Below, one piece after another: positions 5,185-31,356 of a DNA stretch of 64,000 nucleotides (positions are counted from its first letter, which is position 1; every line of letters begins with the position of its first letter). Position numbers and translations under genes: made by a program. Origin of the DNA: Novosphingobium decolorationis (GTDB lineage Bacteria > Pseudomonadota > Alphaproteobacteria > Sphingomonadales > Sphingomonadaceae). The notes below the pieces were generated by a model that saw only the letters and a list, made by a program, of their open reading frames with translations, was not told the DNA's origin and ran no database searches. The stretch spans positions 4,061,001 through 4,125,000 of the forward strand of contig NZ_CP054856.1 in assembly GCF_018417475.1 (NCBI RefSeq). The letters run 5' to 3'.

Positions 5185-5245
5185 GCGTGGCCTCCCCGGT
5201 TGCTCCAGCGTGTTCCTGTGGACTGCCATGAGGCCGTTGCGTGGG

Positions 5246-5274
5246 CGTGACGGTTGGGCGGCACTTGTGTGACA
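5246..5274 (-). promoter_or_regulatory. Candidate Pho box for plcP-agt
   Basis: On the minus strand GTCAC occurs twice, at plus positions 5269-5273 and 5247-5251. These are 22 bases (2 x 11) apart, with a weaker unit GCCGC centred between them. PhoB is known to bind direct repeats phased at 11 bp. The repeats face plcP, whose start lies about 62 bases downstream. Confidence 0.55.
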
Positions 5275-5313
5275 ATCTGTACCTGTGTGCCAAATTCACG
5301 CGGACGTCGCCGA

Positions 5314-5332
5314 TTTGTCACCTGCCCGTCAC
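5314..5332 (+). promoter_or_regulatory. Candidate Pho box for the PhoB paralogue
   Basis: TGTCAC at 5316 and CGTCAC at 5327 are exactly 11 bases apart and face the gene starting at 5378. The layout fits a PhoB dimer site replacing the -35 element. It lies in the 193-base divergent promoter region shared with plcP. Confidence 0.6.
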
Positions 5333-5377
5333 ACTTCGCCTGCAAGTAGCCGCGGAACCTTAGGGGAAAAGGGGCCA

Positions 5378-6052
5378 ATGCGGCGTATTGATATCCTGTT
5401 GGCCAGCGAACTCTCGGGCGGCTACGCGCCGTTTCGCCACGACGACTTCGACGTGGTGCTGCACCGCTGGACAGACTATTGCGAATTGCCGCTGATCGAG
5501 GGCGCCTTGTGGGTCTTCGTGGACTGGGTGCTCCCCGAAATGTCGGGTCTGGAGCTGTGCCGCCGCCTGCGCGCCGATGCGCTGACCGCGCATGCGCATG
5601 TGACAATGGTGCTCGAAGAGGACAATGTCGAGGATCGCAAGCGCGCGCTGCGCATGGGGGCGGATGACTACATGGTCGGCCCGCTCGTGCGCAATGCACT
5701 GCTTGACCGCGTGCTGGGGGGCAATGTCAGCGAACATGACGCCACCGGGATCCGCACTGTGGCCCAGGGCGACCTGACCGTCGATGTCGCGGCCTTCCAG
5801 GCGCGCTGGCAGGGCAAGCCCATTTCGCTCATGCCCAACGAGCTGCGTCTCCTGCGCTACTTCATCGAGCATCCGGGGCGGGTCTTTACCCGCGCGCAGC
5901 TGATCGCGGCGCTGGGCAAGCAGGAGCCGCCGGTCGACGAGCGCACCGTGGACGTGTGGATCGGGCGCCTGCGCCGCGCGCTCAAGGGCGTGGGGGCAGG
6001 CAATCCGCTGCGCACCGTGCGCTCGCTCGGCTACGTGTTCGACGCGGCCTGA
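5378..6052 (+). CDS. PhoB-like response regulator with a degenerate receiver
   Basis: The 224-residue protein is OmpR/PhoB-like: a receiver from about 1 to 125, then a winged-helix DNA-binding domain (RLLRYFIEHPGRVF, DERTVDVWIGRLRRAL) that closely matches PhoB at 2420-3106. The ATG at 5378, preceded by AGGGGAAAAGG, fits best; the earlier in-frame start at 5285 adds sequence overlapping the Pho box. The receiver keeps a probable acceptor D49 (VFVDWVLPEMSG). The acidic pocket is reduced (LLASEL), the conserved Thr is Leu (MVLEED) and the conserved Lys is Gly (YMVGPL). Phosphorylation-driven switching is therefore doubtful, and it may act constitutively or as a modulator of PhoB sites. It diverges from plcP and carries its own candidate Pho box. 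No partner kinase gene is adjacent. Confidence 0.85.
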   Translation: MRRIDILLASELSGGYAPFRHDDFDVVLHRWTDYCELPLIEGALWVFVDWVLPEMSGLELCRRLRADALTAHAHVTMVLEEDNVEDRKRALRMGADDYMVGPLVRNALLDRVLGGNVSEHDATGIRTVAQGDLTVDVAAFQARWQGKPISLMPNELRLLRYFIEHPGRVFTRAQLIAALGKQEPPVDERTVDVWIGRLRRALKGVGAGNPLRTVRSLGYVFDAA

Positions 6053-6084
6053 GCGGGCCGCGCCGTCACGCGCATTTCAGGCTG

Positions 6085-6549
6085 TCAGACCGCGCCCATC
6101 GCGTGCTCACCCGCGTCCTTCGCGTGGATCGGCTTGCCGGTGATGAGCTTGTAGACCTGCTTCAGGCCCATGTCGGCGGTCCACACTTCGCCATCTGCAA
6201 TGTCGAAGCGCAGCAGGACGACGTCGGGATCGTCCTTGCCTTCGGGAAACCAGGCCTCGACCGCGTTGTTCCAGAGGTCGCCCCGGCGCGTGACGCTGGT
6301 ATCTTCGGTGAGGGTGCCCGACAGACAGGCGAAGACGTCGTGGCCCTTGGTCATGACCTGGCCCATCGCCTGGCCGCCGCCCGCGATGCGGTTGGAGCGG
6401 CGGGCGAAGAACCAGATCGAATGGGTCGCATCCTTGTCGAGCATCGCCGTCATCGGTTCGGCGTGGCCGGGCGCATCGGACAGCTTCATCATGATGAAGG
6501 GGCTGTCGGCAAAGGCCTTCCAGAAGGTGTGCTGAACCTTGTCGTCCAT
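6085..6549 (-). CDS. Pyridoxamine 5'-phosphate oxidase-family (general stress protein 26-like) protein
   Basis: The 154-residue protein has the split-barrel flavin-binding fold of the general stress protein 26 group. Recognisable parts are FWKAFADSPFIMMKL, the strand THSIWFFARRSNRI and NAVEAWFPEGKDDPDVVLLRFDI. Such proteins bind FMN/FAD or F420-like cofactors, and most have no proven substrate. The start is the ATG at 6549, preceded by AGGAGA. The gene lies alone between the converging PhoB paralogue and the TMEM165-family gene, 70 bases downstream of the latter. True pyridoxine biosynthesis is unlikely because the catalytic PdxH sequence is not evident. Confidence 0.8.
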   Translation of the reverse strand: MDDKVQHTFWKAFADSPFIMMKLSDAPGHAEPMTAMLDKDATHSIWFFARRSNRIAGGGQAMGQVMTKGHDVFACLSGTLTEDTSVTRRGDLWNNAVEAWFPEGKDDPDVVLLRFDIADGEVWTADMGLKQVYKLITGKPIHAKDAGEHAMGAV

Positions 6550-10383: not shown

Positions 10384-12006
10384 TCAGGCGACCGGAAGAC
10401 CGGTGCACAGGCTGCCGGTGCCGAAGTCGGCGGTGGCGTTGTCGCAGGTCCAGCCGCGGTACCAGGTGTCGTTGGCATCGCGCACGGCGCCGATGTAGTC
10501 GACGACGTCGAAGAAGCTCGAGAAGCTGGCGATGTTGGCGTAGGCCACGACACCGCTCTCGTTCGAGCCGTTGACGAAGGTGCTGGTCAGCGTCGAGGTG
10601 ATCGAGGCGTTGTTGTTGGTGCCGGCGTTGAACATGTCTGCCGCCGTGTTCGTGCCCGAGTACTGGCTACCCGTGCTCAGGAACGGACCGGTGTCACCGC
10701 AGGTCATGACGACCGAATTGGCGGTGAAGGTCGCCGAACCGGTGGCGGTACGACCATCGACGCGGATGCACTCGTTGCTCGGCGTGTTGATGATGCCGTT
10801 GACGAAGTTGATGTCCGCATCGCCGCGCACCAGGATGCTGGCTTCGTCCGAGTTGTCCGGACGGTTGCCCGACTGGATCGCGGTGAAGTTGGCGAAGGTC
10901 GAGCGCTGACGGTCGGCCGGATCGGAGTTGATGTTGTTGTTCGAGTCGATCTCGAAGAAGGCATCGCCCGCACCCGCACGCTGGAGCAGCAGCAGGTACT
11001 GGAAGTTGCCCTTGAGGCCGGTGTCGGTGTCGAGGCTGTCATCGTCGGCGTTGACCGCGATGTAGTGCTTCATGTTGACCGCGCCGCCGAAGAACTCCGA
11101 ACCGTCGTCCGAGCTGTTGACGGTCTGGATGTAGTCGAGCGTGGTGCCCGTGCCCAGGCCGCCGCCGGTGAGCGACTGGAGTTCGGCGTCGGGCGCCAGG
11201 TTGTAGCCCGAGTAGCGGATCTGCACGTAGCGCATCGAACCGGCGCTGTAGCCGTTGTTGCGGCCGCCGAAGGTGGCGGGGGTCGCTGCGCCTTCGGTCT
11301 CGCGCTGGCAATCGTCGGTGGCGACGCTGCCGCCCGCGGTGCAGTCGGTGATGATGCCGCGGCCAAGCAGCACGATGCCGCCCCACTGGCGATCCGAGCT
11401 GTCGGTGGCCGAGCCGACGACGTTCTGGCGGCTGGTGAAGACGATCGGCGAGGAGGCGGTGCCGTTGGCCTGGATCGTGTTGCCGCGGTTGACGGCGAGC
11501 CAGGCCGGATCGGCGGCGTTCTCGGCGTAGACGATGACGCCCGGATCGATGGTCAGCTCAACCGAGGTGTCCGAGGTCAGGCTCGAGATCCCGGCGTTGA
11601 GGCACGAGGCAGTGGTGGTGGTGTAGGGCGAGCCCGAGGACGGGACCGAGAAGCCGCCGTCGCAGCCCACGTCCACGCGGCCGTTGATGCGATAGAGAAC
11701 GCCCGCCTCGTTGGGCAGGCTGGAGCTCGCATCGACCAGCGCGGGCAGGGTGCAGATGCGCCAGGAGTTGCCGTTGGGGTCCTCGATGGTGCCGTCGTTC
11801 GAAAGGCCGCCCGTCGCGTTGAAGGTCGGGCATTCGGCAGCCGCTTCGATGATGCCGGTGGTCGGCGTGGGCGTCGGCGTGGGCGTGCCGCCGCCGTTGT
11901 TGACCACGACGCTGCCGGCACCCGGCGAGGCAATGTCGTCTGCGCCGCAGCCGGCGAGAGCGAGAGCGCTGCAGCCCAGAAGCATCAGGCCAGAGAATTT
12001 CTTCAC
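10384..12006 (-). CDS. Exported lipoprotein, predicted right-handed repeat fold, partner of the TonB receptor
   Basis: The 540-residue protein has a lipoprotein signal peptide with lipobox LALAGC (acylated Cys20). A flexible Gly/Pro/Thr linker (GGGTPTPTPTPTTG) follows, then a long Asx/Ser/Gly-rich body with IVFTSRQNVVG, WGGIVLLGRG and SSDDGSEFFGGAVNMKHY. The repeated short strands suggest a parallel beta-helix. Proteins of this look are commonly found beside TonB-dependent receptors in Sphingomonadales, Caulobacter and Xanthomonas and are usually unnamed. The receptor gene follows on the same strand. The region before the start holds several GTCAC units at 11-bp phase, so phosphate control is likely. 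A surface ligand-capturing role is inferred; enzymatic activity cannot be excluded. Confidence 0.78.
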   Translation of the reverse strand: MKKFSGLMLLGCSALALAGCGADDIASPGAGSVVVNNGGGTPTPTPTPTTGIIEAAAECPTFNATGGLSNDGTIEDPNGNSWRICTLPALVDASSSLPNEAGVLYRINGRVDVGCDGGFSVPSSGSPYTTTTASCLNAGISSLTSDTSVELTIDPGVIVYAENAADPAWLAVNRGNTIQANGTASSPIVFTSRQNVVGSATDSSDRQWGGIVLLGRGIITDCTAGGSVATDDCQRETEGAATPATFGGRNNGYSAGSMRYVQIRYSGYNLAPDAELQSLTGGGLGTGTTLDYIQTVNSSDDGSEFFGGAVNMKHYIAVNADDDSLDTDTGLKGNFQYLLLLQRAGAGDAFFEIDSNNNINSDPADRQRSTFANFTAIQSGNRPDNSDEASILVRGDADINFVNGIINTPSNECIRVDGRTATGSATFTANSVVMTCGDTGPFLSTGSQYSGTNTAADMFNAGTNNNASITSTLTSTFVNGSNESGVVAYANIASFSSFFDVVDYIGAVRDANDTWYRGWTCDNATADFGTGSLCTGLPVA

Positions 12007-12100: not shown

Positions 12101-12159
12101 GTGACAATTTGTTGGCGTTGCCATGACAGAAATATGGACTTTTCTGACACTGGCGTGAC
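12101..12159 (-). promoter_or_regulatory. Candidate Pho box cluster for the lipoprotein-receptor operon
   Basis: On the plus strand, GTGAC at 12101, TTGGC at 12112 and ATGAC at 12123 are 11 bases apart. CTGAC at 12144 and GTGAC at 12155 are again 11 apart. Read on the minus strand these are GTCAC/GTCAT/GTCAG direct repeats facing the lipoprotein gene, whose start is 95 bases away. Confidence 0.6.
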
Positions 12160-12245
12160 TTCCATGTGTCAAGGAGGGCGCAGGTGGAAAATGGCTCGAG
12201 GCGACTCACGTATTTCTGCGGGGTTCGCATCAAGATTGCAGTTTT

Positions 12246-12261: not shown

Positions 12262-12328
12262 TTTGCTTGAGGGCTGTGGCTTTTCGCGCACAATCGGTCG
12301 CATTGATGAACTCGAGGGAGAAAACCAC

Positions 12329-12706
12329 ATGTCCTTGACCGCCGCAGCCCTGGCTCTCCTTGCTGGCCAGTCCGCCCTTTCGCTCACGGTCGAACTGCCG
12401 CGCGCCGAATCGCAGGACGTGGCCTATTCCGAACTTGTGGCCGGACAGGACCAGGCGGCGCTTGCCAAGCTGCTGTCCGCGCGGGAGGTGCGCGGGGAGG
12501 ACCCTGCGCTGCTGATAAACCTGGGGGCTGCTTACACCCGCCTTGGCCGCGTCCACGAAGCGCGCAAGGCCTACGATGCGGCCATTGTCAGTGACGAGCG
12601 CTATGACCTCGAAACCGGCAGCGGCAAGTGGATCGATTCGCGCTACATCGCCCGCACCGCCAAGCGTGAAGGCCTCGACGCGCAGCGCACGCTCGCCATG
12701 CTCTGA
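12329..12706 (+). CDS. Small exported tetratricopeptide-repeat protein
   Basis: The 125-residue protein starts at the ATG at 12329, preceded by GAGGGAG; the frame extends upstream to 12101 but without a ribosome site. The first 20 or so residues (MSLTAAALALLAGQSALSLT) look like a short signal peptide. Residues 45-95 form one or two TPR units (PALLINLGAAYTRLGRVHEA, then RKAYDAAI). It is divergent from the lipoprotein-receptor operon and precedes the T4SS operon by about 300 bases. A scaffold role in the periplasm is likely for such proteins. No partner can be named. Confidence 0.75.
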   Translation: MSLTAAALALLAGQSALSLTVELPRAESQDVAYSELVAGQDQAALAKLLSAREVRGEDPALLINLGAAYTRLGRVHEARKAYDAAIVSDERYDLETGSGKWIDSRYIARTAKREGLDAQRTLAML

Positions 12707-12783: not shown

Positions 12784-12958
12784 TCCGTGTCCTCTTCCTG
12801 TCCCTGTCCCTGTCCTGCTCGTGAAGCGGAGCGCGAGATGTCCCCTGCGGGTCGCGCCAGCACCATTTAGATTGGCGTCTTGCTTCATCAGCGTCAGACG
12901 GGCCCCGTGGGCGCGCTGGCGCAGGGGAGTTGGGGGATTGACGCCTTCGCCGTGTGAT

Positions 12959-12979
12959 CGTCACAAGCTTGTCACAAGA
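12959..12979 (+). promoter_or_regulatory. Near-perfect Pho box upstream of the T4SS operon
   Basis: GTCACAAG at 12960-12967 is repeated exactly at 12971-12978, an 11-bp direct repeat with eight of eight identical bases. It faces virB2, whose ATG is 33 bases further on. This is the cleanest PhoB-type site in the window and places it where it would replace a -35 element. Confidence 0.72.
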
Positions 12980-13011
12980 TTCGCGCAATCCGCCCCCAGA
13001 CACAGGGCAGG

Positions 13012-13365
13012 ATGATTCGAGTTATGACGTTCGTTTGCGTTTCACGGCGATCGCTTTCCAAGGTTTTTTCGGGGCTTCTGGCTCTTGTGGCGATGCTTTG
13101 CATGCCCGTGCGCGCCTTCGCGCAAGTCGCCGGGCAGCAGGATCCTGCTGGTTCGGGCCCCATCGTCAACGCGCTCACCTGGCTGCAGGGAACCCTGCTC
13201 GGCAATGTGGCGACGGCGGTGGCCGTCATGGCGGTGGCCGCCGTCGGCTTCGGCATGCTGACGGGCCGCATGAACTGGCGCTTTGGTGCGACGGTCATCA
13301 TCGGCGTCTTCGTGCTGTTCGGTGCGGGCGCGATCGTATCGGGCATCCAGCAGGTCGCAGGCTGA
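13012..13365 (+). CDS. virB2: Type IV secretion pilin VirB2/TrbC
   Basis: The 117-residue protein has a long signal peptide ending near MPVRAFAQV and then two hydrophobic helices (LLGNVATAVAVMAVAAVGFG and FGATVIIGVFVLFGAGAIV) joined by a short basic loop. That is the layout of TrbC/VirB2 major pilins, which form the T4SS pilus. The ATG at 13012 is used; an ATG four codons later is possible. It is the first gene after the Pho box and is 6 bases before virB3. Mature pilin would be about 80 residues, a normal size. Confidence 0.88.
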   Translation: MIRVMTFVCVSRRSLSKVFSGLLALVAMLCMPVRAFAQVAGQQDPAGSGPIVNALTWLQGTLLGNVATAVAVMAVAAVGFGMLTGRMNWRFGATVIIGVFVLFGAGAIVSGIQQVAG

Positions 13366-13371
13366 GCCGCG

Positions 13372-13653
13372 ATGGCGCTGGCCCGCTTCCCCGTTCACAG
13401 GGCGCTGACCCGGCCGCAGATGTTTGCCGGAGTGACCTTCAGCTACTTCATCATCAACGGGATGGTGACGACCGAGGTCTTCCTGCTCACCAAGAACTTC
13501 GTGGCGCTGCTCGCCTTCGCGGTGATGCACGTGATCGGCTACCTTGCCTGCCTGCGTGAACCGCGGGTCTTCGATCTCTGGCTCAAGAAAGTCAGCAAGT
13601 GCCCCCGCGTGCGCAACTGGAAGCGCTGGGGCTGCAACAGTTACGCGCCCTGA
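13372..13653 (+). CDS. virB3: Type IV secretion protein VirB3
   Basis: VirB3 is a small inner-membrane protein that works with the VirB4 ATPase. The 93-residue product has the family start (FPVHRALTRPQMFAGV) and two hydrophobic stretches. These are followed by a cytoplasmic tail with the conserved EPRVFDLW segment. The gene lies between virB2 and virB4, as in most T4SS operons, with an 18-base gap before virB4. The cysteine-containing basic end (KCPRVRNWKRW) is also seen in plain VirB3 proteins. Confidence 0.92.
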   Translation: MALARFPVHRALTRPQMFAGVTFSYFIINGMVTTEVFLLTKNFVALLAFAVMHVIGYLACLREPRVFDLWLKKVSKCPRVRNWKRWGCNSYAP

Positions 13654-13671
13654 GGGGCGCTCGCGGGGGGA

Positions 13672-16113
13672 ATGACAATGGGTCGTCGCTTCAAGGACGT
13701 GCTGACGGGCTGGGCCGCCAGGGAAGCGGTGGCGGGCGACCGTCTGCCCTATGCGCAGCTTGTCGATGAAAGCGTTGTGCGCCTGCGCGATGGGTCGCTG
13801 GCGCTGGCGCTGATGGTGCCGGGCCTCGCGTTCGAGACCGCCGATACCGACGAACTCAACGCCCACGTGGCGACGCGCGAGGTGCTGCTGCGCTCCTCGC
13901 TCGATGCGCGCTTCGTGCTCTACCACCACGTCATCCGCCGCCGCGTCGAGGTCGAACTCGACGGCCACTTCGAGGACCCGCTCGCCGCGCATATCGACGC
14001 ACGCTGGCGTGAGCGGACGCGCTCGGGGGATCTGTTCGTCAACGACCAGTTCATTACCCTGGTGCGCCGTCCCGCACGCGGCAAGGCGGGCTGGGCCGAT
14101 CGTCTCTCGCGCAGCTTGCGGGGCAACACGAGCGAGGATGGCACCGGTATCGACCCCGCCGACGTGCGCGCGCTGCGTGCCGCTGCCACCGCGATGGTGG
14201 CCTCGCTCGGCGCCTACGGTGCGCGACTTCTGGGCGACTACGAAGGGACCACGGGGACCTGCTCGGAAGTCCTTGAACTGCTGAGCGCGCTCTACAACGG
14301 TGAGATGCGGCCCGTGCGTCGTCCGGCTGCGGGCACCGACATCGGCCACATGCTGCCCTATCGCCGCATCAACTTCGGGCTCGATGCACTGGAGCTGCGC
14401 GGGGCCGATGGCCGGCCTGCCTTCGGCGCCATGGTCAGCCTGAAGGAATACCCCGATGCGACTTCGCCCGGGCTGACCGACGCGCTGCTGCGCCTGCCCG
14501 CCGAGATGGTGCTGACCGAAACCTACGCTCCGTGTGATCGCCAGATCGCGCGCGAGCGCATCGATCTTGCCATTCGTCGCCTGCGTTCGGCTGACGAGGA
14601 AGCCATGGCCGAGCGGTCCGAAATGGTGTCCGCGCGCGACGCCCTGGGCACTGGCGCGGTCGGCTTTGGCGACCATCACCTCTCGGTGCTGGTGCGCGCC
14701 GACACGCTCGATGAACTCGACATGGTGAGCGCGGCCTGCGCCGCCTCGCTCGCCGATGCGGGCGCGGTTGCGGTGCGCGAGGACGCGAACCTGGAGCCCG
14801 CCTTCTGGGGGCAGTTCCCCGGGAACGAGGAATTCCTGGTGCGCCGCGCGCTCATTTCCAGTGCAAACATGGCGTGTTTCGGCTCGCTCCACGGCTTCTC
14901 GCTGGGCCAGGCGAGCGGCAACCACTGGGGCGAGGCAGTGACGCTGCTCGCGACCACCAGCTCGACCCCGTTCTTCTTCAACTTCCACCAGGGTGATCTT
15001 GGTAACTTCACCGTCATCGGGCCGTCGGGTTCGGGCAAGACGGTGGTCATGAACTTCCTTGCCGCGCAGGCGCAGAAGTTCGCGCCCCGCACGATCCTCT
15101 TCGACAAGGACCGCGGCGCCGAGGTTTTCCTGCGCGGCATCGGCGGCACCTACAGCCGCATCGCGGCGGGCCACCCGACCGGCTTCAATCCGCTCGCGCT
15201 GTCCGATACCGACGCCAACCGCGCGTTCCTGCGCGACTGGCTGGGCGTCCTGCTCGAGGCCAAGGGTGCCGAAGAGATGGCGACGATAGCGAGCGCAGTC
15301 GATGCGGCCTATCACAACGATGCCTCGCTGCGCCGTCTTTCGCACTTTCGCGAACTGCTGGCCGGCGCGCGCCGGCCCGAGCCGGGCGATCTTGCCTCGC
15401 GTCTCGATGCCTGGATTGCCGGGGGCGAGCATGGCTGGCTCTTCGACAACGCCGAGGACCGGCTCGATCTCGACACACGTGTCCTGGGTTTCGACATGAC
15501 CGCGCTCCTGGAAAGCCCGCGTCTGCGCACTCCGGTGATGATGTACCTGTTCCACCGCATCGACGAGCGTCTGGACGGCGAGCCGACCATGATCCTCATC
15601 GACGAGGGCTGGAAGGCGCTCGACGACGAGGTCTTCGCCGCGCGCATCCGCGACTGGCTCAAGACCCTGCGCAAGCGCAACGCGCTGGTCGGCTTTGCCA
15701 CCCAGTCCGCGCGCGACGCGCTCGACAGCCGTATTTCGACCGCGCTGGTCGAGCAGACCGCAACCATGCTCTTCATGCCGAACTCGCGCGCGCGGCCTGA
15801 GGATTACTGCGAGGGCTTCGGCCTGTCGCTCCACGAACTCGAAGTGATCCGCACGCTCCCGGCGCATTCGCGCTGCTTCCTCATCCGCCAGAGCGACGCC
15901 TCGGTCGTGGTGCGTCTCGACCTTTCGGGCAGTCCCGAGGTGCTGACGGTCCTGTCGGGCCGCGAGAGTACCGTGCGCAAGCTCGATGCCCTGCGCGAGC
16001 GCTACGGCGACGCGCCGCGCGCCTGGTACCCCGCGCTTACCGGCCAGCCTTGGCCGGGTGACAGCGGTGCCGCTGCGGCCGACGACGCGCTCTGGATCGA
16101 GGCGGCCGAGTAG
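13672..16113 (+). CDS. virB4: Type IV secretion ATPase VirB4
   Basis: The 813-residue protein is the hexameric AAA-type ATPase at the base of the T4SS. Walker A is at about residue 450 (GPSGSGKTVV), followed by FDKDRG. Walker B is near residue 640 (MILIDEGWKAL), with the downstream FATQSARDAL and FMPNSRA segments typical of VirB4. Length matches the usual 780-830 residues and the gene is intact, so the apparatus has its core motor. It is 5 bases upstream of virB6; no virB5 lies between. Confidence 0.96.
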   Translation: MTMGRRFKDVLTGWAAREAVAGDRLPYAQLVDESVVRLRDGSLALALMVPGLAFETADTDELNAHVATREVLLRSSLDARFVLYHHVIRRRVEVELDGHFEDPLAAHIDARWRERTRSGDLFVNDQFITLVRRPARGKAGWADRLSRSLRGNTSEDGTGIDPADVRALRAAATAMVASLGAYGARLLGDYEGTTGTCSEVLELLSALYNGEMRPVRRPAAGTDIGHMLPYRRINFGLDALELRGADGRPAFGAMVSLKEYPDATSPGLTDALLRLPAEMVLTETYAPCDRQIARERIDLAIRRLRSADEEAMAERSEMVSARDALGTGAVGFGDHHLSVLVRADTLDELDMVSAACAASLADAGAVAVREDANLEPAFWGQFPGNEEFLVRRALISSANMACFGSLHGFSLGQASGNHWGEAVTLLATTSSTPFFFNFHQGDLGNFTVIGPSGSGKTVVMNFLAAQAQKFAPRTILFDKDRGAEVFLRGIGGTYSRIAAGHPTGFNPLALSDTDANRAFLRDWLGVLLEAKGAEEMATIASAVDAAYHNDASLRRLSHFRELLAGARRPEPGDLASRLDAWIAGGEHGWLFDNAEDRLDLDTRVLGFDMTALLESPRLRTPVMMYLFHRIDERLDGEPTMILIDEGWKALDDEVFAARIRDWLKTLRKRNALVGFATQSARDALDSRISTALVEQTATMLFMPNSRARPEDYCEGFGLSLHELEVIRTLPAHSRCFLIRQSDASVVVRLDLSGSPEVLTVLSGRESTVRKLDALRERYGDAPRAWYPALTGQPWPGDSGAAAADDALWIEAAE

Positions 16114-16118
16114 AGGTC

Positions 16119-17354
16119 ATGGCCAGCGACACCTGTCAGCGCCTGACCGAACTTGCCTCTGAGGGGGTGGCCCCGGCCCTGCGCGCGGTTGACTGCGTGG
16201 CGAACGAGATGGCCGCGGGCGCTTTCGGGCGTCTGTTCGGCAGCGACGGCGCGCTCGTGCCGGCGATCTCGATCCTGCTCGCGCTCTACATCGCGCTTTT
16301 CGCTTTCCTGCTGATGACCGGCCGCGCTTCGGTGGGCGTGTCCTCGCTCATGCCGCGCATGATCACCATCGGCGTGGTCCTGCTCTTCACCAGCAGCTGG
16401 CTCGCCTATCAGGGCATGGTCTGGAGCTTTGCGCTGGCAGGTCCCGACTGGATTGCGGGGCAGCTGATGGGGGCGGACGGTTCGGCCACGCAGATCTTTG
16501 CCGACCGCATCGACATCGTCTTCGGTGTCATCAACGAGATCGGCACCAATGCCGGATCCGGCGGCGGCTCGGCCGGAGAGGCCGCCAAGGAGACGGCGGA
16601 CGCCGCCTCGATGATGTCGCCCGAAGGGCTGATGTGGATGGGCGCAATCCTGCTCCTGCTGGGCACGGTTGGCATTCTCCTCACCGCGCGCATTGCGCTG
16701 GGTATCCTCATCGCGCTGGGGCCGCTCTTTGTCATTCTGGGGCTGTTTGGCGCAACACGCGGGCTCACCGCGGGTTGGCTGCGTGGCATGGTGCTGACCG
16801 CCTTTACGCCGCTCTTCGTGGTCATGGGGGGAGGCATCATCCTCGAACTGCTCGTGCCGATCGTCTCCGCTCTGGTCACGTCGGCGCAGATGGGGGAGAT
16901 CGACGGGCGCGCGGCCATGGCCTTCTTCACGGTCGCGGCGGTCCACGTCGCGCTCATGGTCATGGTGTTCAAGGTGGCCGGCACGATGGTCTCGGGCTGG
17001 CGCGTCTTTGGCCTGGCGGCCAGCCGTGAAGAGCGGGCGGGACCGAGTGCCGCCGTGCCCGCACCTGCGCCCGTGGCCCCGATGCTCCAGCCGCTGGGCG
17101 TTGCCACCTCGCGCACCGGGCACATGAGCGCGTTGGCCGCCAGCCACGCTACGCAGGCAGGGCCAGGCGGCAACGGCGGGGAGGGCGCTTCGGGCCGCTC
17201 GGGTGAGCGGCGGACCGTCACCACCCACGTTACCGGCGGCGGCATTGCGCCCGCCGGAGCCGGACAGGACATGCGCGCGAAGGGCATTGGCAGCCGCTTT
17301 CGCAGCGCCTCGAACGACACCGGCCGCGCGCCGGTCAAGGAGAAGACACGATGA
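16119..17354 (+). CDS. virB6: Type IV secretion inner-membrane protein VirB6/TrbL
   Basis: The 411-residue polytopic protein has about seven hydrophobic segments between residues 45 and 290. They include ISILLALYIALFAFLLM, LLGTVGILLTARIALGI and AVHVALMVMVFKVAG, with the invariant Trp-containing central region. A soluble Ala/Gly/Pro-rich tail of about 120 residues follows. VirB6 forms part of the inner-membrane channel. The gene overlaps virB9 by 4 bases, leaving no room for virB7 or virB8, which normally stand here. The N-terminal 40 residues are soluble (CQRLTELASEGVAPALRAVD). Confidence 0.9.
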   Translation: MASDTCQRLTELASEGVAPALRAVDCVANEMAAGAFGRLFGSDGALVPAISILLALYIALFAFLLMTGRASVGVSSLMPRMITIGVVLLFTSSWLAYQGMVWSFALAGPDWIAGQLMGADGSATQIFADRIDIVFGVINEIGTNAGSGGGSAGEAAKETADAASMMSPEGLMWMGAILLLLGTVGILLTARIALGILIALGPLFVILGLFGATRGLTAGWLRGMVLTAFTPLFVVMGGGIILELLVPIVSALVTSAQMGEIDGRAAMAFFTVAAVHVALMVMVFKVAGTMVSGWRVFGLAASREERAGPSAAVPAPAPVAPMLQPLGVATSRTGHMSALAASHATQAGPGGNGGEGASGRSGERRTVTTHVTGGGIAPAGAGQDMRAKGIGSRFRSASNDTGRAPVKEKTR

Positions 17355-18199
17355 CGCACGCCTTCACGCTGCGCACCACATTTTCGCGCCTGATGCTGGG
17401 GTCGGTTCTCGCCGCAGGGCTGCTGAGCGCCCCTGTCCGCGCCGACGACCGCCTGGTCGAGCACGCCTACCGCGCCGACGAGGTCGTCACCATTCCCGGG
17501 CGCACCACGGTTCAGGCCACCATCGCCTTTGGCCGCAACGAAGCGATCGAGAACGTCGCGGTGGGTGACAGTTCGCAGTGGCAGATCACGCCGAACAAGC
17601 GGGCTGATCTGCTGTTTGTGAAGCCGCTGGAGACCAGTGCGCGCACCAACATGACGGTTGTCACCAACAAGCGGACCTACTTCTTCGACCTCGTCGCAGG
17701 AGCCAGGGCCAAGCCGCTCTACATGCTGCGTTTCACCTATGCGGACGAGGAAGAGCCGGTCGATGACACCCCGCTTGCCCGCCCCAGCGAGGCGGAGCGC
17801 CTGGCCCATCTCGATCCGGCCGAGCGTGCTGTGGCCGAGGGCGATCCCCTGGCGATGCCCGCCGAGGTCGCCGCACTCAACTTCGCGTGGGAGCGCAAGG
17901 GCGCGGCCAAGCTGCAGCCGGTCCGGGTCTACGACGACGGGCAGGCTACGTACCTCGTCTGGCCCGAACAGACGCCGAACCTGCCCGCCATCCTTGTCGA
18001 GAACGAGAAGGGCGACGAAGGGCCGGTCAACTATGCCGTGCGCGGCCCCACCATCGTGGTGAGCGATGTGCCCGACCGCATCATCCTGCGCCGCGGCAAG
18101 GACGTGGCCGAACTGCTCAACACCGTTCCGCTTGGCGAACGGCCTGCGCCGGCACTCGCGCAGCGTGCAGGTACAACCCCGCCGGTTTCGGCACAGTGA
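17351..18199 (+). CDS. virB9: Type IV secretion outer-membrane-complex protein VirB9
   Basis: The 282-residue precursor has a Sec signal peptide ending near APVRA. The N-terminal VirB9 domain (IAFGRNEAIENVAVGDSSQW, LLFVKPL, TNMTVVTNKRTYFFDL) is followed by a linker. The C-terminal beta-sandwich (LNFAWERKGA, VWPEQTPNLPAI, YAVRGPTIVV) contacts VirB10. VirB9 and VirB10 build the core ring across the periplasm and outer membrane. The GTC-ATG junction with virB6 indicates translational coupling. No small VirB7 lipoprotein is adjacent, so the core complex may lack this lipid anchor. Confidence 0.93.
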   Translation: MTHAFTLRTTFSRLMLGSVLAAGLLSAPVRADDRLVEHAYRADEVVTIPGRTTVQATIAFGRNEAIENVAVGDSSQWQITPNKRADLLFVKPLETSARTNMTVVTNKRTYFFDLVAGARAKPLYMLRFTYADEEEPVDDTPLARPSEAERLAHLDPAERAVAEGDPLAMPAEVAALNFAWERKGAAKLQPVRVYDDGQATYLVWPEQTPNLPAILVENEKGDEGPVNYAVRGPTIVVSDVPDRIILRRGKDVAELLNTVPLGERPAPALAQRAGTTPPVSAQ

Positions 18200-18213
18200 G
18201 AAGGGCCTGAACG

Positions 18214-19314
18214 ATGGCGCCCCATTCCTCTTCCGTTTCCGCCCTTCACGAGCGTCGCTTCGGCGCCAACGCGACCGACCCGCGCGAGGGTGAGGGGGCT
18301 GAGGTTATCGACCTTGCCACCCGCAATGTCCTGCCCCAGGTCTCGCAGCGCAAGAAGGCCGATGGTCTGGGCCTGGTCGCGGGGATCGTCTTCGTCGCCG
18401 CGCTGGGCGGCCTTACCTTGTGGATGATGGACGGCGCGCGCAACGCGGCGCCCGAACAGGATCTTGCCGCCGCGCCCGCGCCGGTCCCCGAGGCGCCGGT
18501 GCCGACGCCGTCGGTGCGCCCCGCGCCGGTGCCGGTGGCGCGTCCGGCCGCTCCGCTGGCCGCGCCCGCGCCCGCGCCCGTTCTTGCCAACGATCCCAAC
18601 GCCCAGGCCGGCCCCCAGGGCAACCCTTACGCCAACCCCACGGTCGTCTATGACGCCAGTGCAGGCGCGGTCGGCGCGCCGGGCCCGGCTGGAGGAGATG
18701 GGAAGGCAGGCGGCGCCCCGAACGATGACTTTGCCTCGCGTCTTGCGGGCACGAACTCGACCGCGGCGGCCGCGCGCACCTTCAATCCGGCGACCACGGT
18801 CACACAGGGCACGCTGATCCCGGCGGTTCTTGAAACCGCGATCGATACCGAAGTGCCCGGCTACGTGCGCGCCATCGTTTCGACCGACGTGCGCAGCTTC
18901 GATGGCAAGAAGGTGCTGATCCCGCGCTCCTCGCGCCTCATCGGCCAGTACAAGAGCGGTCTTACCGCCGGACAGAAGCGCGCCTACGTGATCTGGACCC
19001 GCGTGATCCGTCCCGATGGCGTGTCGGTCGACATCGGTTCGCCCGCGATTGCCTTTGGCGGGGAGACGGGCCTTCCGGGCAAGGTCAACACCCACTTCTT
19101 CGAGCGCTTCGGTTCGGCCATGCTGCTCTCGGTCGTCGATGGCCTGACGACGCTGGCAACCGGCGGTGCGTCGGTCGTTGTGGCGGGCGGTTCTTCGGCG
19201 GCTGCGCAGGCCGTGCAGGGCAGCTCGAACATCGGCCCGACGATCCGCGTGCGCCAGGGTGAGCCCATCCGCGTCTTCACCGCCAAGGATCTCGACTTCG
19301 GTCCGGTGCAGTGA
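18214..19314 (+). CDS. virB10: Type IV secretion core protein VirB10
   Basis: VirB10 spans both membranes and relays ATPase energy to the outer-membrane pore. The 366-residue protein has a cytoplasmic N-terminus, one transmembrane helix at about 52-73 and a proline-rich periplasmic arm (about 80-130). The conserved C-terminal barrel follows: TVTQGTLIPAVLETAIDTEV, LIPRSSRLIGQYKSG and GLPGKVNTHFFERFG, which includes the pore-helix region. The ending (IRVRQGEPIRVFTAKDLDF) is typical. The gene is intact and sits 14 bases after virB9 and 33 before virB11. Confidence 0.95.
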   Translation: MAPHSSSVSALHERRFGANATDPREGEGAEVIDLATRNVLPQVSQRKKADGLGLVAGIVFVAALGGLTLWMMDGARNAAPEQDLAAAPAPVPEAPVPTPSVRPAPVPVARPAAPLAAPAPAPVLANDPNAQAGPQGNPYANPTVVYDASAGAVGAPGPAGGDGKAGGAPNDDFASRLAGTNSTAAAARTFNPATTVTQGTLIPAVLETAIDTEVPGYVRAIVSTDVRSFDGKKVLIPRSSRLIGQYKSGLTAGQKRAYVIWTRVIRPDGVSVDIGSPAIAFGGETGLPGKVNTHFFERFGSAMLLSVVDGLTTLATGGASVVVAGGSSAAAQAVQGSSNIGPTIRVRQGEPIRVFTAKDLDFGPVQ

Positions 19315-19347
19315 TCGTCCACGCAATTACCAAGGCAGGATTTCGCC

Positions 19348-20412
19348 ATGGCCGACGTTCTATCGCTGGTGCCTGCGGCTGCGGGCACGCCGATGTCTGA
19401 GAACATGCCCGAGGTGCAGGTGGAAGCGTCGGTTCCGCGCAGCGTCTATCTCGACGCCTACCTGGCTCCTTTGCGCCCCTGGCTCGACCGTGAGACGGTG
19501 ACCGAGATCCTGGTCAACCGTCCGGGCGAGATCTGGGTGGAGGATGCCGCGCACGCCGATGGCGGTGCGGGAATGAAGTGCATCGCGCTTCCCGAGATGG
19601 ACAACCGCCTGCTCCAGCGCCTCGCCGAGCAGGTGGCGCGGATCAGCCATCAGGGCATCAACCGCGAGCATCCGCTGCTCTCGGCAACGCTTCCGGCCTA
19701 CGCCGGGCAGTCCAGTGCGCGCATCCAGCTGGTCGGACCGCCCGCGACGCGCAGCAACTGGGCCATGGCGATCCGCCGTCACCGCTTGCTGAACCTGCCG
19801 CTCGATGCCTATGACCGCGGTCCCATTACTCCGCCTGAGGAAGCGCCTACACCCGATCCGATGGCGCAGCCCATCGCCTTCCTCAAGGACGCGATCCAGC
19901 GCCGCCGCACGATCCTGATTTCGGGCGGTACCTCGACCGGCAAGACCACGTTCCTCAACGCCATGCTGGCCGAGATCCCGCAGGACGAGCGTGTCGTGCT
20001 GGTGGAGGACACCGCCGAACTCAAGCTGCCGGGCGCCAATGGTGTCGGCCTTATCGCGGTCAAGGGTGAGCTGGGCGAGGCCAAGGTCTCGGCCAACGAC
20101 CTGCTTCAGGCGGCGCTGCGCCTGCGCCCCGACCGCATCGTGCTGGGCGAGCTGCGCGGGACCGAGACGGTCTCGTTCCTGCGCGCCATCAACACCGGCC
20201 ACCCCGGCTCGTTTTCGACCGTCCACGCCAACACGCCGCGCGGCGCGCTGGAGCAGATCGCGCTCATGGCGATGCAGTCGAACATTGGCCTCACCCGCGC
20301 CGAGACGCTGGAATACGCCGCCAGCGTGATCGACATCGTCGTCCAGCTGGACCGTCAGGACGGCAAGCGCGGGATCGGCCAGATCGCCGAGAGCCGCACA
20401 CTGGTGGGCTGA
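19348..20412 (+). CDS. virB11: Type IV secretion ATPase VirB11
   Basis: The 354-residue protein is a hexameric traffic ATPase of the VirB11/GspE superfamily. The N-terminal domain (LAPLRPWLDRETVTEILVNR) precedes Walker A at about 192 (ISGGTSTGKTTFLNA), the Asp box (LVEDTAELKL), Walker B (RPDRIVLGELRG) and the His box (TGHPGSFSTVHAN). It is the last gene of the operon, followed by a GC hairpin. VirB11 helps pilus formation and substrate translocation; its presence suggests a working secretion or pilus machine rather than remnants. Confidence 0.95.
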   Translation: MADVLSLVPAAAGTPMSENMPEVQVEASVPRSVYLDAYLAPLRPWLDRETVTEILVNRPGEIWVEDAAHADGGAGMKCIALPEMDNRLLQRLAEQVARISHQGINREHPLLSATLPAYAGQSSARIQLVGPPATRSNWAMAIRRHRLLNLPLDAYDRGPITPPEEAPTPDPMAQPIAFLKDAIQRRRTILISGGTSTGKTTFLNAMLAEIPQDERVVLVEDTAELKLPGANGVGLIAVKGELGEAKVSANDLLQAALRLRPDRIVLGELRGTETVSFLRAINTGHPGSFSTVHANTPRGALEQIALMAMQSNIGLTRAETLEYAASVIDIVVQLDRQDGKRGIGQIAESRTLVG

Positions 20413-20448: not shown

Positions 20449-21996
20449 TCAGAACGCGGCCTGCACGCCGGTGACCAGCACATTGCTGCGGGCGGAATGG
20501 ACCGACCAGGTCGACCCGTCGGGGAAGTTGCCGCCGCTCAGGAAGTTGAGCGGTACGTAGCCCACTGTGTGGACGTACTCGCCAAAGAGGTCGACGCTGT
20601 CGGCCAGGCGGTGCGAGAGGCCAGCCACCCATTGCTCCTGGCGCTCCCACGGCGCGCCGTCAGGGCCGGAGTTGAAGCGGCTGAACTCGAAGCTGACGTT
20701 CGTCTCGCGCACCGAAACCGGCAGGTTGTAGCGCGCGCCCAGCGTCAGCGAGGAGATGCGGCTGGCGGAGTAGTGCGCCAGGTCCGGGTTCACCGCGTCC
20801 GGCACCTGCGTACCGGGCAGGACCCGAATGGTGCGTGCAAAGTCGCCGATGAGGTGCAGGCGTCCGGCATCGAGCTTGCCGTAGATCCCCCAGGCCGGAT
20901 TGCGCCCCTCGCACGGGTTGAAGTGGAAGACCGGGTAGCTCTGGCAATAGGCCGTGCCATGCAGGTAGCTGCCGCCAAGGCGCAGCTGCGTAGTGGGGGC
21001 AAGGTTCAACGTGTAGCTGGCATCAAGCGCGAAGTTGTTGACCTTGGAGGGCACGTTGGTGCCGTCGACCGAGGTGTTTGCGCCTCGGAACTGCGAGCCG
21101 CCCACGATCGCCATCGCGCGCAGCGACAGCCCCTTGTCGTAGTACCCGGCAAGCCCGCCATAGGCGAGCGGGGCAAAGGCGTGCCAGTTGGTCGAATTGG
21201 TGAAGGGGCTGACCGTGTCCTGCAGGCCGAAGGGCACGTCCATCTTGCCGATCGCGGCATAGAGCGGGCTGCGCGATAGGTCACCGGCCATGACCCACGC
21301 CTTGCGCAGCTGGACCTGGTTGCGGCTCAAGGTGGTTATCGTGCCCGCACCAAAGCTCTGTTCGGGATCGTAGAGCATTTCGGCGTAGGCGGTGATGCCG
21401 CGCGTGGGCGCCACGGTGAAGGCGAGCTGCGCGCTGTGAAGCACGATTTCCTGCGTGGCGCGGGTGCGCTCGTTGCTGCCGGTCGGATGGCGCATCAGGT
21501 AGCCGAACTTGTTGGTCGTGTTCGACCACTGCGCGTCGGCAATGGCGGTCACCGCGCCGCTCAGCGTGACCATTGCGTCCAGTTCGCCATCGCGCCGCGC
21601 TTCGAGCTGGAGGATCTGGCGCCGGTTGATGTTCTCGGCATGGTCGAGGAGCGCGTAGCCATAGGCGGGCGCAATACCCAGTGCAGGACCGCTTGCGGAG
21701 TTGGTCGCGGCTGCAGGGAGGCTTGTGGCCGTGCCGGGCGCAGCTGCGCGGACAGGCTGGGCGGCAGCACGTGCGGTTGCAGCGGTCGGTGCTTGCGGCA
21801 TCGGGGGCGTGGAGCTGTGCTCCTGGGCCTGGCGCAGGCGTTCGACTTCGGCGGTCAGTCGGGCGTTAGCGTCCTCAAGGGCGCCAAGACGTGCGACGAG
21901 TTCGGCAATGCTCGGCTCGGATGCCTCCTGCGCGCGGCTCGCCGAAGAAAAAAGGGTGGCCGTTACAACGCACCCGAGCGCGATTTGTTTGCGCAT
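20449..21996 (-). CDS. Phosphate/polyphosphate-type porin of the OprO/OprP family
   Basis: The 515-residue precursor has a signal peptide ending near SASRAQ and an N-terminal coiled coil (IAELVARLGALEDANARL) that probably forms a periplasmic trimer stalk. A 16-strand-type barrel then ends in Phe (TGVQAAF), as outer-membrane proteins do. The sequence FGLQDTVSPFTNSTNW and the adjoining barrel fit the OprO/OprP-like group, which passes phosphate or pyrophosphate. Specificity cannot be proven without the arginine ladder. It faces virB11 tail-to-tail and lies downstream of the sulfatase gene on the same strand, in a phosphate-linked neighbourhood. A 16-base palindrome lies 42 bases before its start. 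Confidence 0.8.
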   Translation of the reverse strand: MRKQIALGCVVTATLFSSASRAQEASEPSIAELVARLGALEDANARLTAEVERLRQAQEHSSTPPMPQAPTAATARAAAQPVRAAAPGTATSLPAAATNSASGPALGIAPAYGYALLDHAENINRRQILQLEARRDGELDAMVTLSGAVTAIADAQWSNTTNKFGYLMRHPTGSNERTRATQEIVLHSAQLAFTVAPTRGITAYAEMLYDPEQSFGAGTITTLSRNQVQLRKAWVMAGDLSRSPLYAAIGKMDVPFGLQDTVSPFTNSTNWHAFAPLAYGGLAGYYDKGLSLRAMAIVGGSQFRGANTSVDGTNVPSKVNNFALDASYTLNLAPTTQLRLGGSYLHGTAYCQSYPVFHFNPCEGRNPAWGIYGKLDAGRLHLIGDFARTIRVLPGTQVPDAVNPDLAHYSASRISSLTLGARYNLPVSVRETNVSFEFSRFNSGPDGAPWERQEQWVAGLSHRLADSVDLFGEYVHTVGYVPLNFLSGGNFPDGSTWSVHSARSNVLVTGVQAAF

Positions 21997-22139: not shown

Positions 22140-23747
22140 TCAATTGGTCTGGGCGCTGTAGGCCGAGCTCATCATTTCATCGACATCGAGGTCGAAGCTC
22201 TTCTGGCGCGGCGGATATTCCTGCAAGGTGGCCATGAACTTGGCGACCTGTTGCCCGGCCGCACCCAGCGTCCAGGAATGGTTTTCCTGCCATTCGTCAT
22301 ACCCGCGCGCCTCGAGGAAGCGCTCGAAGGGATCGAGCTTGAGGTTGATGATGTAGGGGGTGACGAGCTGCTCCTGCACGCCGTTGAACCACTTGTCCTG
22401 GCTCTTGAACAGGAACTTCCAGTCCCCGTAGCGCAGCCCGTGCAGGGTGGTTTCGGTGAAGTAGTAGAACTCCTTGCGCTTGGTGGGGCCACGCCCGGAG
22501 ACCAGGTCGGTCTGGTCGACGCCATCGAGGTGGACCTTGTAGGTCATGTTGCCGATGCGCTTGCCGCTCTTGAGCTCGGCGACCAGATTGGGCTGCCCGA
22601 GATGGGACATGATGGTGGGGACCCAGTCCTCCATGGTCATGAATTCGCCAGTCGTGGTGCCCGCCGGAATGTGCCCGGGCCAGGACACCATCATGGGGAC
22701 GCGGAAGCCGCCTTCCCAGCCACCCACGCCCTTTTCGCCATGGAACGGGGTGTTGCCGCCATCGGGCCAGGAATTGCAGGCAGGGCCGTTGTCGGTCGAG
22801 AACATGACCATGGTGTTGTCGGCCACGCCCAGCTCCTCGAGAAGGTCGAGCAACTGGCCAACCTGATCGTCGAGCTGTTCCATGCCATCGGCGTAAAGGC
22901 CATAGCCGGTGACGCCGTCGTACTCGGGCGGCAGGTTGGTGCGGTAGTGCATGCGCGTGGTGTTGTGCCACACGAAGAAGGGCGTTCCGGCGCGGGCTGC
23001 GTCGCTTATGAAGCGTTTGGATTCCTTGAGGAATTCATCGTCGAGATGGCGCTGGCGCTCCTGTCCGAAGGGGCCCAGGTCCTCGATCTTCTGGCCACCT
23101 TTGCCGTCCGCCCAAGTGTGGACCACGCCGCGTTGCTGGAAGGCGGGATTGTCCTTGGGGTAGTCGTACTGCTCGGGATATTCGCCCGCGTTCAGGTGGT
23201 AGAGAATACCCATGAACTCGTCGAAGCCGTGCGCGGTGGGCAGGTGCTCATCGCGGTCGCCCAGGTGGTTCTTGCCGAACTGGCCGGTCGCATAGCCCAG
23301 CGGCTTGAGCATCTCGGCAAGCGTCGGGTCTTCCTTCTGGAGGCCGAGCTCGGAGCCGGGCAGGCCGACCGTGCTCATGCCGGTGCGGATCGGGTACTGG
23401 CCGGTGATGAAGGCGGCGCGGCCCGCCGTGCACGAGGCCTGCGCGTAGTGGTCCATGAACAGCATGCCCTTCTGGGCGATGCGGTCGATGTTGGGCGTCT
23501 TGTGGCCCATCATGCCGCGGTGGTAGGCGCTGAGGTTCCACATGCCCACGTCATCGGCCCAGATGACGAGAATGTTGGGGCGGCTGGCGCTACCCGATTG
23601 GGCGAGCGCGCGGCGCGGTGCGGCGAGCTTGCCGATGACCGGAAGGGCGGCCAGCAGGCTGGAGCCCTGGAGCAGCTTGCGCCGTGAGACGTCGGACGGC
23701 GCGCGCTTTTCGGTAAGTGTGAGGGGAGGGCGGTTCTCTGTGTCCAT
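22140..23747 (-). CDS. Tat-exported arylsulfatase-family hydrolase
   Basis: The 535-residue precursor starts at the ATG at 23747 and has a twin-arginine signal (SRRKLLQGSSLLAALPVIG) ending near RRALAQ. The sulfatase fold begins with PNILVIWADDVGMWNLSAY, whose Asp pair binds Ca2+. The modification motif is CTAGR, fitting C-x-(P/A)-x-R, in which Cys becomes formylglycine. Later metal ligands appear in FSTDNGP. The superfamily also contains phosphonate monoester and phosphodiester hydrolases, so in this phosphate region the substrate may be a phosphate or sulfate ester. No formylglycine-generating enzyme gene is in the window. The gene lies between ppx and the porin on the same strand. Confidence 0.88.
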   Translation of the reverse strand: MDTENRPPLTLTEKRAPSDVSRRKLLQGSSLLAALPVIGKLAAPRRALAQSGSASRPNILVIWADDVGMWNLSAYHRGMMGHKTPNIDRIAQKGMLFMDHYAQASCTAGRAAFITGQYPIRTGMSTVGLPGSELGLQKEDPTLAEMLKPLGYATGQFGKNHLGDRDEHLPTAHGFDEFMGILYHLNAGEYPEQYDYPKDNPAFQQRGVVHTWADGKGGQKIEDLGPFGQERQRHLDDEFLKESKRFISDAARAGTPFFVWHNTTRMHYRTNLPPEYDGVTGYGLYADGMEQLDDQVGQLLDLLEELGVADNTMVMFSTDNGPACNSWPDGGNTPFHGEKGVGGWEGGFRVPMMVSWPGHIPAGTTTGEFMTMEDWVPTIMSHLGQPNLVAELKSGKRIGNMTYKVHLDGVDQTDLVSGRGPTKRKEFYYFTETTLHGLRYGDWKFLFKSQDKWFNGVQEQLVTPYIINLKLDPFERFLEARGYDEWQENHSWTLGAAGQQVAKFMATLQEYPPRQKSFDLDVDEMMSSAYSAQTN

Positions 23748-23936
23748 GAGCCGGTTTCCAGTCCTTGCAATGGGCGTGTCGCCGATGGCGACGACCGGCA
23801 GCAAGGCTGGCGCAGGGCTGGAGAGAACCCCATCGGGATAAACCCTGATGCGAGCAGGGGATGTGCTGGAGATACCGAAAACAAACGCTTTTTCGTGTGC
23901 GGAGAGGGCGAAGCCTGGGATCCGGGGGGGCTGGGA

Positions 23937-27775: not shown

Positions 27776-27984
27776 GTGACCCTCTTCTGGTGGTCTTGCG
27801 GTGCGGTCCAGGGCGCGGATTTCGGCCCGTGGCACGTACGTGTCTCTAAAAACGCGGCCCTTGCCAGTTCTCGATGACGCTTTTGCGGCAAATGGTACAC
27901 GTAAAGGGCACTGTAACGAAAACTCTTTCTAGGCCAAGTGAACAGCGTTGCAGTGCAGCAGCGTTTCGCGCAAAGTCACCCGCG
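27776..27984. other. Divergent promoter region of ppk and the peptide-ligase cluster
   Basis: These 209 bases separate two divergent operons. They hold a single GTCAC (27975) without an 11-bp partner and an AT-richer stretch around 27,890-27,940. No gene, hairpin or repeat is evident. Confidence 0.5.
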
Positions 27985-30900: not shown

Positions 30901-31356
30901 ATCGGGGGGACCGTGCGCTATGTCGACAGTTCGACCGAGCGCCTGCAGGTCAAGGCCACGGGGCTCGTCAAGGGACGCCACGTTATCACCTGCAACGGGC
31001 GCCGTGTGCCCATGACGATGACCGGGCCCGAAGAAGGCGTGGGCGGCGTGCGCTACAAGGCGTGGTGGCCGGCCGAGTGTCTGCATCCGCTGCTGGAGCC
31101 GCACACCCCGCTCACCTTCGACATCTTCGACACCTGGAATGGACGTTCGCTGGGTGGCTGTGTCTACGAGGTCGCCCATCCGGGCGGGCGCAATTACGAC
31201 ACCGTGCCCGTCAACGGCTACGAGGCCGAGGCGCGGCGCAAGGCGCGCTTCACACCGCACGGCCATTCGCCAGGCCCCATGGCGCCGCCGCCCGAGGAAC
31301 TGCCGGGCGAGTTTCCCCATGCCCTCGATCTGAGACGTCCGCCGCGTGTCCACTAG
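27985..31356 (+). CDS. Giant transglutaminase-like protein with DUF2126 domain
   Basis: The 1,123-residue protein has a transglutaminase N-terminal domain (about 1-85) and a papain-like transglutaminase core near 165-260 with [20 protein letters not shown] (Cys) and [19 protein letters not shown] (His, Asp). The large C-terminal DUF2126 follows ([46 protein letters not shown]). In the upstream frame the first Met is at 27874, but the family sequence begins at 27985 ([14 protein letters not shown]). The family accompanies circularly permuted ATP-grasp and alpha-E proteins and was proposed to serve peptide synthesis and cleavage; no biochemical role is proven. The next gene overlaps by 11 bases. 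Confidence 0.9.

Follow-up and report, generated by a model that had tools for sequence, protein, structure and literature searches.

A minimal virB operon behind a conserved Pho-box-like repeat in Novosphingobium decolorationis, with a possible part in phosphate scavenging

The window analysed here, a stretch of 64,000 nucleotides of Novosphingobium decolorationis (C1:4061001-4125000; the genome comprises 4.75 Mb on two contigs), carries a seven-gene type IV secretion system (T4SS) operon headed by a Pho-box-like direct repeat. The operon and the features discussed with it are as follows, in window coordinates.

5306-5332, plus strand: Pho-box-like element before the second OmpR-type regulator gene (ATG 5378), from a one-mismatch match and its score
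7605-10553 (ORF as listed), minus strand: TonB-dependent receptor (Pfam; gene linkage)
10384-12006, minus strand: putative lipoprotein of ElpS-like kind (its relatives have a precomputed PF28492 match; gene linkage)
12144-12170, minus strand: weak Pho-box-like element of three half-sites, oriented towards the ElpS-like gene (one-mismatch matches; score 18.6)
12326-12706, plus strand: small gene with TPR repeats, flanked by the ElpS-like gene and the virB operon (weak TPR matches below cut-offs; linkage)
12958-12978 (scored stretch 12958-12975), plus strand: Pho-box-like direct repeat heading the virB operon (sequence reading; locus comparison)
13012-13365, plus strand: virB2, pilin (Pfam TrbC)
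13372-13653, plus strand: virB3 (Pfam VirB3)
13672-16113, plus strand: virB4, ATPase (Pfam CagE_TrbE_VirB; TIGR00929 above cut-off; Walker A motif)
16119-17354, plus strand: virB6, inner-membrane channel protein (Pfam TrbL)
17351-18199, plus strand: virB9, outer-membrane core (Pfam CagX)
18214-19314, plus strand: virB10, core scaffold (Pfam TrbI)
19348-20412, plus strand: virB11, ATPase (TIGR02788 above cut-off; Walker A motif)

The description of virB2-3-4-6-9-10-11 as seven intact genes, put forward in an earlier note on this DNA, holds: all seven ORFs are open and exceed the curated cut-offs of their Pfam families (TrbC/VirB2, VirB3, CagE_TrbE_VirB, TrbL/VirB6, CagX/VirB9, TrbI/VirB10 and T2SSE/VirB11), and NCBIfam matches were of the same kinds. 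With VirB4 accompanied by VirB3, VirB6, VirB9, VirB10, a VirB2 pilin and VirB11, the system belongs to the VirB-type (type IVA) machines. Novosphingobium sp. BW1 has a VirB4 97% identical to that of the window. Close orthologues of this protein (74% identity or more) occur in 88 of the 296 Sphingomonadales genomes sampled, with a single copy per carrier among the candidates scored (at most three per genome) and a gap in identity down to 69% and below. The Walker A motif is retained in 81 of 81 VirB4 rows and 68 of 68 VirB11 rows, and six comparisons gave dN/dS values of 0.035-0.14, which together indicate that the virB machine is in use. A decayed remnant of a mobile element was considered and ruled out by the close orthologues in these 88 genomes, by the dN/dS values and by the conserved neighbours.

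The same note had placed the operon in a phosphate region, most of which could be recovered: a pstA-type permease, a pstB-type ATPase, PhoU, a PhoB-type regulator, a metallophosphoesterase, the TonB receptor, Ppx and Ppk are confirmed neighbours in the window. Its label of an OprO-type porin for 20449-21996 fared less well, as the matches to Porin_4 and to an LbtU-type porin both lie below their cut-offs; a clear OprO/P porin stands just outside the window, before pstS (L114:4751-6187). Among relatives, the ElpS-like lipoprotein, the TonB receptor and the small TPR gene are frequent neighbours of virB, and the second OmpR-type regulator (5378-6052) is a conserved neighbour in many loci. The name ElpS-like, and with it the link to Cc0170, rests on gene order and description. 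The listed receptor ORF overlaps the next gene, so that its true start probably lies at about 10292. In Phenylobacterium deserti (L038) the lipoprotein, the receptor, virB1 and the genes from virB2 onward all run in one direction.

The repeat at the operon head reads GTCACAAG-N3-GTCACAAG, with copies at 12960-12967 and 12971-12978; the 8/8 identity, the 11-bp step and the 33 nt separating it from the virB2 ATG at 13012, all previously noted, can be read directly in the sequence. When GTCAC-N6-GTCAC was searched for with one mismatch in the window only, 5 matches were found against 3.65 expected, and 38 of 100 shuffles reached 5, which is not significant. Over the whole 4.75-Mb genome, the pattern YGTCAYN5YGTCAY has 10 sites and its reversed form 0. 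Two overlapping (tandem) sites precede pstS, a gene of phosphate-binding-protein type with a pstC-type permease gene behind it; one of the remaining sites precedes the second OmpR-type regulator and one precedes virB2, while six of the ten lie elsewhere without a clear phosphate link. One of these six adjoins a NUDIX/PhoU-like gene and faces away from it.

A related VirB4 is present in 287 loci. In the best 80 of these, conservation of the repeat was assessed by scoring PhoB-like half-site pairs at an 11-bp step (with hand-set weights) within 300 nt upstream of the codon at which the alignment of the first operon gene begins, with a threshold score of at least 20. The count leaves out L058, which has 5 nt of upstream sequence, and L069 and L074, which have no virB2 hit. 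On the coding strand, a site reaching the threshold precedes the first operon gene in 68 of the 78 loci counted, or in 67 of 77 once the window itself is set aside, these loci sharing ancestry and not being 78 independent trials. The opposite strand gave 1 of 78 and the starts of internal virB genes 0 of 78, and in each of the 68 loci 0 of 100 dinucleotide shuffles matched the real score. Ten loci score below 20 at the head (L028, L031, L038, L049, L050, L052, L064, L065, L066 and L078), of which L031 (20.5) and L078 (20.9) have a site near the head, beyond the slice used in the 78-locus count. L038 and L052 fall below the threshold despite their ElpS-like/TonB/virB gene order. A chance repeat was ruled out by these locus-comparison controls, for which the window-only search would not have sufficed.

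The position of the box follows the composition of the operon. virB1, coding for an SLT transglycosylase, lies upstream of virB2 in 49 loci and is missing from the clade of the window; the box stands ahead of virB1 in 41 of the 49 virB1-headed loci and ahead of virB2 in 27 of the 29 virB1-less ones, and thus marks the operon head, being placed before virB1 where this gene is present and otherwise before virB2. The 29 clearly virB1-less rows form one clade of the VirB4 tree (L058, L069 and L074, which have no virB1 call and are either cut close to the end of a contig or without a virB2 hit, were excluded from this count), and boxes occur in both main halves of the tree, on either side of its midpoint root, which points to a single loss of virB1 and to an old box. 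The seven-gene form as the original state was ruled out by the 49 virB1-bearing loci and the confinement of virB1-less rows to one clade. Further away, a VirB4 match at E up to 1e-240 was found in 7 of 385 genomes spread over the class. The distant systems L125-L129 (VirB4 about 52-68%) have no site of at least 20 and no ElpS-like pair in the stretch, so that phosphate control seems, from sequence comparison, to be a trait of one sub-lineage within a broader minimal VirB lineage; L128 has a site of 19.0 ahead of virB1, in the right direction.

The earlier note had proposed that a chromosomal T4SS stands under a PhoB-type promoter in a phosphate region, and had suggested searching for the same Pho box before virB2 orthologues in other Sphingomonadales. 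The repeat and its neighbourhood both proved to be conserved in relatives, with a Pho-box-like site close upstream of the operon in 68 of 78 loci as scored with hand-set weights. Pho control of the virB operon, predicted from this comparison, is well supported and in our view very probable; that PhoB itself would bind the repeat is what we infer. Another OmpR-family regulator, either the second regulator at 5378-6052 or one of ChvI type, could bind the repeat instead, in which case the signal would perhaps not be phosphate alone. OmpR-family binding sites resemble one another, the second regulator is conserved near virB in many loci, and in L125 and L126 a different OmpR-type regulator gene adjoins virB2. 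Yet the same motif is found in tandem ahead of pstS and likewise upstream of the second regulator, where 18 of the 18 loci whose stretch includes plcP have it, a pattern expected of PhoB targets that makes another regulator a decidedly unlikely explanation. Ahead of the lipoprotein gene, a site of at least 20 is present in 20 of 66 loci and one of at least 19 in 44 of 66, against 0 of 660 shuffles.

What the operon lacks bears on what it may do. A Pfam scan and the gene gaps revealed no VirD4, VirB5, VirB7 or VirB8 in the window's virB operon, and its widest intergenic gap is 33 nt, into which virB5, virB7, virB8 or virD4 cannot fit. The VirB7 lipoprotein is too small for a family search. In relatives, gaps between aligned parts reach 387 nt (virB6-virB9) and 526 nt (virB9-virB10). 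Genome-wide, among the 80 of 88 carriers queried, no match was found to VirB8 (PF04335) in 55, to VirB5 (PF07996) in 79, the window genome included, and to the VirD4 family in 40. In the window genome, VirB8 and VirD4 are encoded elsewhere, in two regions at about 3.53-3.54 and 3.84-3.85 Mb, and contig 2 carries pieces of VirD4. A conjugation system would have VirD4 beside its transfer genes, and in the window genome VirD4 sits in other regions only; no relaxase was found among the part of the window ORFs that was scanned with Pfam. To our knowledge, VirB8-less systems have no characterised precedent.

Three uses are known or proposed for VirD4-less T4SSs, namely protein export by Ptl, DNA uptake by ComB and the making of pili by Trw, according to a recent review (PMC12857230). 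A fourth, in which the operon would serve as a weapon or as a DNA-release machine against neighbours when phosphate is short, has a parallel in bacteria-killing T4SSs (PMC6536674); with VirD4 missing from the operon, and with no VirD4-family match in half of the carriers queried, we consider it very unlikely.

A cargo-free pilus or surface organelle, serving attachment or biofilm formation at phosphate limitation, would account for the retention of the pilin, VirB6, the core proteins and both ATPases without a coupling protein. Its model is Trw of Bartonella, which is without VirD4 and has been proposed to make pili; Trw has many virB2 copies, against the single one of the window operon (PMC12857230). 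The Pfam VirB5 family, that of the pilus tip, is also absent in nearly all carriers, and we regard a mere pilus as improbable.

Protein export offers a closer parallel. Ptl of Bordetella, which has a VirB8 homologue, shares with the window operon a VirB-type core and the absence of both VirD4 and VirB5; the window operon differs from it in having a Pho-box-like control site. The protein that Ptl releases into the medium is taken from the periplasm, and Ptl has a VirB7 homologue (PMC12857230); in the window operon VirB8 was not found and there is no apparent room for VirB7. In lacking VirD4 and VirB5 the operon agrees with a Ptl-like two-step exporter, with VirD4 encoded elsewhere in some genomes, and the want of a VirD4 of its own makes two-step working the most likely mode.

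The distribution of the type II secretion system (T2SS) gives a further indication. Its secretin GspD (E up to 1e-60) was found in 142 of the 296 genomes, 139 of them above the cut-off, and T4SS and T2SS occur together in 3 genomes against 42 expected (Fisher p 4e-27, uncorrected for phylogeny). Of the three, G030 is above the GspD cut-off and G194 and G220 lie near 278 bits; 69 of the 296 genomes have neither system. Of the 16 genomes from the window's genus, 7 carry the T4SS and 5 the T2SS; none carries both systems, and 4 are without either. The window genome has no GspD above the cut-off, and the secretin matches below it in all 80 carriers queried (of 88) were taken as other secretins. 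At odds with this exclusion, T2SS and T4SS were both said to be overrepresented in Qipengyuania (PMC9241875).

The ElpS-like/TonB pair links the two kinds of system. In the Caulobacter cluster of elpS, TonB receptor and T2SS, as in the window, the lipoprotein-receptor pair directly adjoins a secretion system, which is of type II in Caulobacter and of type IV in the window; Caulobacter ElpS is made under phosphate starvation and its secretion requires the T2SS (PMC2996285). Among the 18 T2SS loci fetched (L094-L110 and L112, without L111), 6 have the pair in the stretch, and in L101 gspC and gspD directly follow the TonB receptor. No ElpS-like pair was found within the roughly 20 kb fetched around the T2SS loci of the window's genus (L094-L098). 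The T2SS exclusion and the lipoprotein/receptor pair together favour periplasmic protein export over DNA uptake or pili.

DNA uptake nonetheless has points in its favour. DNA can be used as a phosphorus source, and a phosphate-induced importer, with the VirB2 pilus drawing in extracellular DNA in the manner of ComB, would suit such a use. Helicobacter ComB, like the window operon, is without VirD4 and VirB5 and has VirB2-VirB4, VirB6, VirB9 and VirB10, but it has VirB7 and VirB8 and is without VirB11 (PMC12857230), apparently the reverse of the window operon. The same seven genes form a virB operon in Citromicrobium, for which DNA import was proposed, with phosphate control unmentioned in what was seen of that report (PMC3338782). 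The Citromicrobium loci L054 and L056 belong to the window's family, and they differ from the window in having virB1 behind the Pho-box-like site. An importer leaves the T2SS exclusion unexplained, and the exclusion pattern is better matched by a channel that secretes scavenging proteins; we think import unlikely.

The reading that we lean towards, tentatively and with slightly less than even confidence, is that the operon encodes a PhoB-controlled, VirD4-less T4SS that moves Sec- or Tat-exported scavenging proteins across the outer membrane in place of the T2SS. When phosphate runs out, PhoB would switch on the chromosomal VirB system (B2-B3-B4-B6-B9-B10-B11, joined by VirB1 in most relatives outside the window's clade). 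Scavenging proteins (hydrolases, for example, or the surface lipoprotein of ElpS-like kind) would be carried by Sec or Tat into the periplasm, from which the VirB channel or pilus, powered by VirB4 and VirB11, would move or release them over the outer membrane, and the VirB machine would thereby fill the role held by the T2SS in relatives. The direction of transport, the cargo and the induction of this exporter by PhoB are what we infer. As to its origin, we put forward as a possibility, rated rather below even, that in an ancestor common to Erythrobacteraceae and Novosphingobium a T4SS without VirD4 and VirB8 was brought under PhoB and took over from the T2SS beside the ElpS-like/TonB pair.

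T4SSs have usually been studied as movers of DNA or as virulence machines. We recognised no report of a phosphate-controlled virB operon in these bacteria in the open-licence literature, consulted mostly as titles and abstract openings, and the words 'phosphate', 'Caulobacter' and 'Sphingo' do not occur in the main text of a 2025 review of T4SSs (PMC12857230). If the proposed export function is true, many environmental bacteria would keep a housekeeping T4SS with which to scavenge nutrients, a physiological role new to those of the family. It could account for the missing T2SS in these genomes, and secretion that does without VirD4 and VirB8 could be studied in a harmless model. Simple phosphate limitation would then put to the test why chromosomal virB operons are so often 'incomplete', a puzzle of long standing. 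If the replacement reading is also true, one whole secretion machine would have been swapped for another as the exporter of phosphate starvation.

A second OmpR-type regulator gene in the window has its own Pho-box-like element upstream, and a box scoring at least 20 (PhoB-like half-site pairs at an 11-bp step, weights set by hand) faces this regulator in all 18 loci that hold plcP in the fetched stretch. Because its receiver domain is matched by the Pfam profile only from position 46 onward, the regulator may be atypical. The features considered here are as follows.

Features within and just before the window
5306-5332, Pho-box-like element before the second OmpR-type regulator gene
5378-6052, plus strand, second OmpR-type regulator gene
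22140-23804, minus strand, sulfatase-family enzyme, adjoining the porin gene
27874-34722, plus strand, three consecutive genes past ppk
L114 (stretch just before the window) 4751-6187, plus strand, OprO/P phosphate-selective porin gene (PF07396)

On the pstS side, the OprO/P porin gene is followed by a tandem Pho-box-like site and then by the pstS-type gene. Elsewhere in the genome, one of the ten sites of the motif YGTCAYN5YGTCAY (L118:1501-1606) lies about 100 nt upstream of a NUDIX and PhoU-like (PF01865) gene, but is oriented away from it.

The sulfatase, whose N-terminus has a Tat-like start (SRRKLLQG, judged by eye), is a possible candidate for a secreted hydrolase; among the best 80 of 287 loci with a related VirB4, it recurs in one only (L008). 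The row past ppk holds genes for three proteins: a DUF2126 amidoligase/transglutaminase, one with a circularly permuted ATP-grasp/Alpha-E make-up, and a further one of transglutaminase type.

In a family of more distant relatives (L125 and L126), whose VirB4 proteins are about 67% identical to that of the window, the same seven virB genes adjoin a divergent OmpR-type regulator gene in place of phosphate neighbours, a hint that the signal there may differ.
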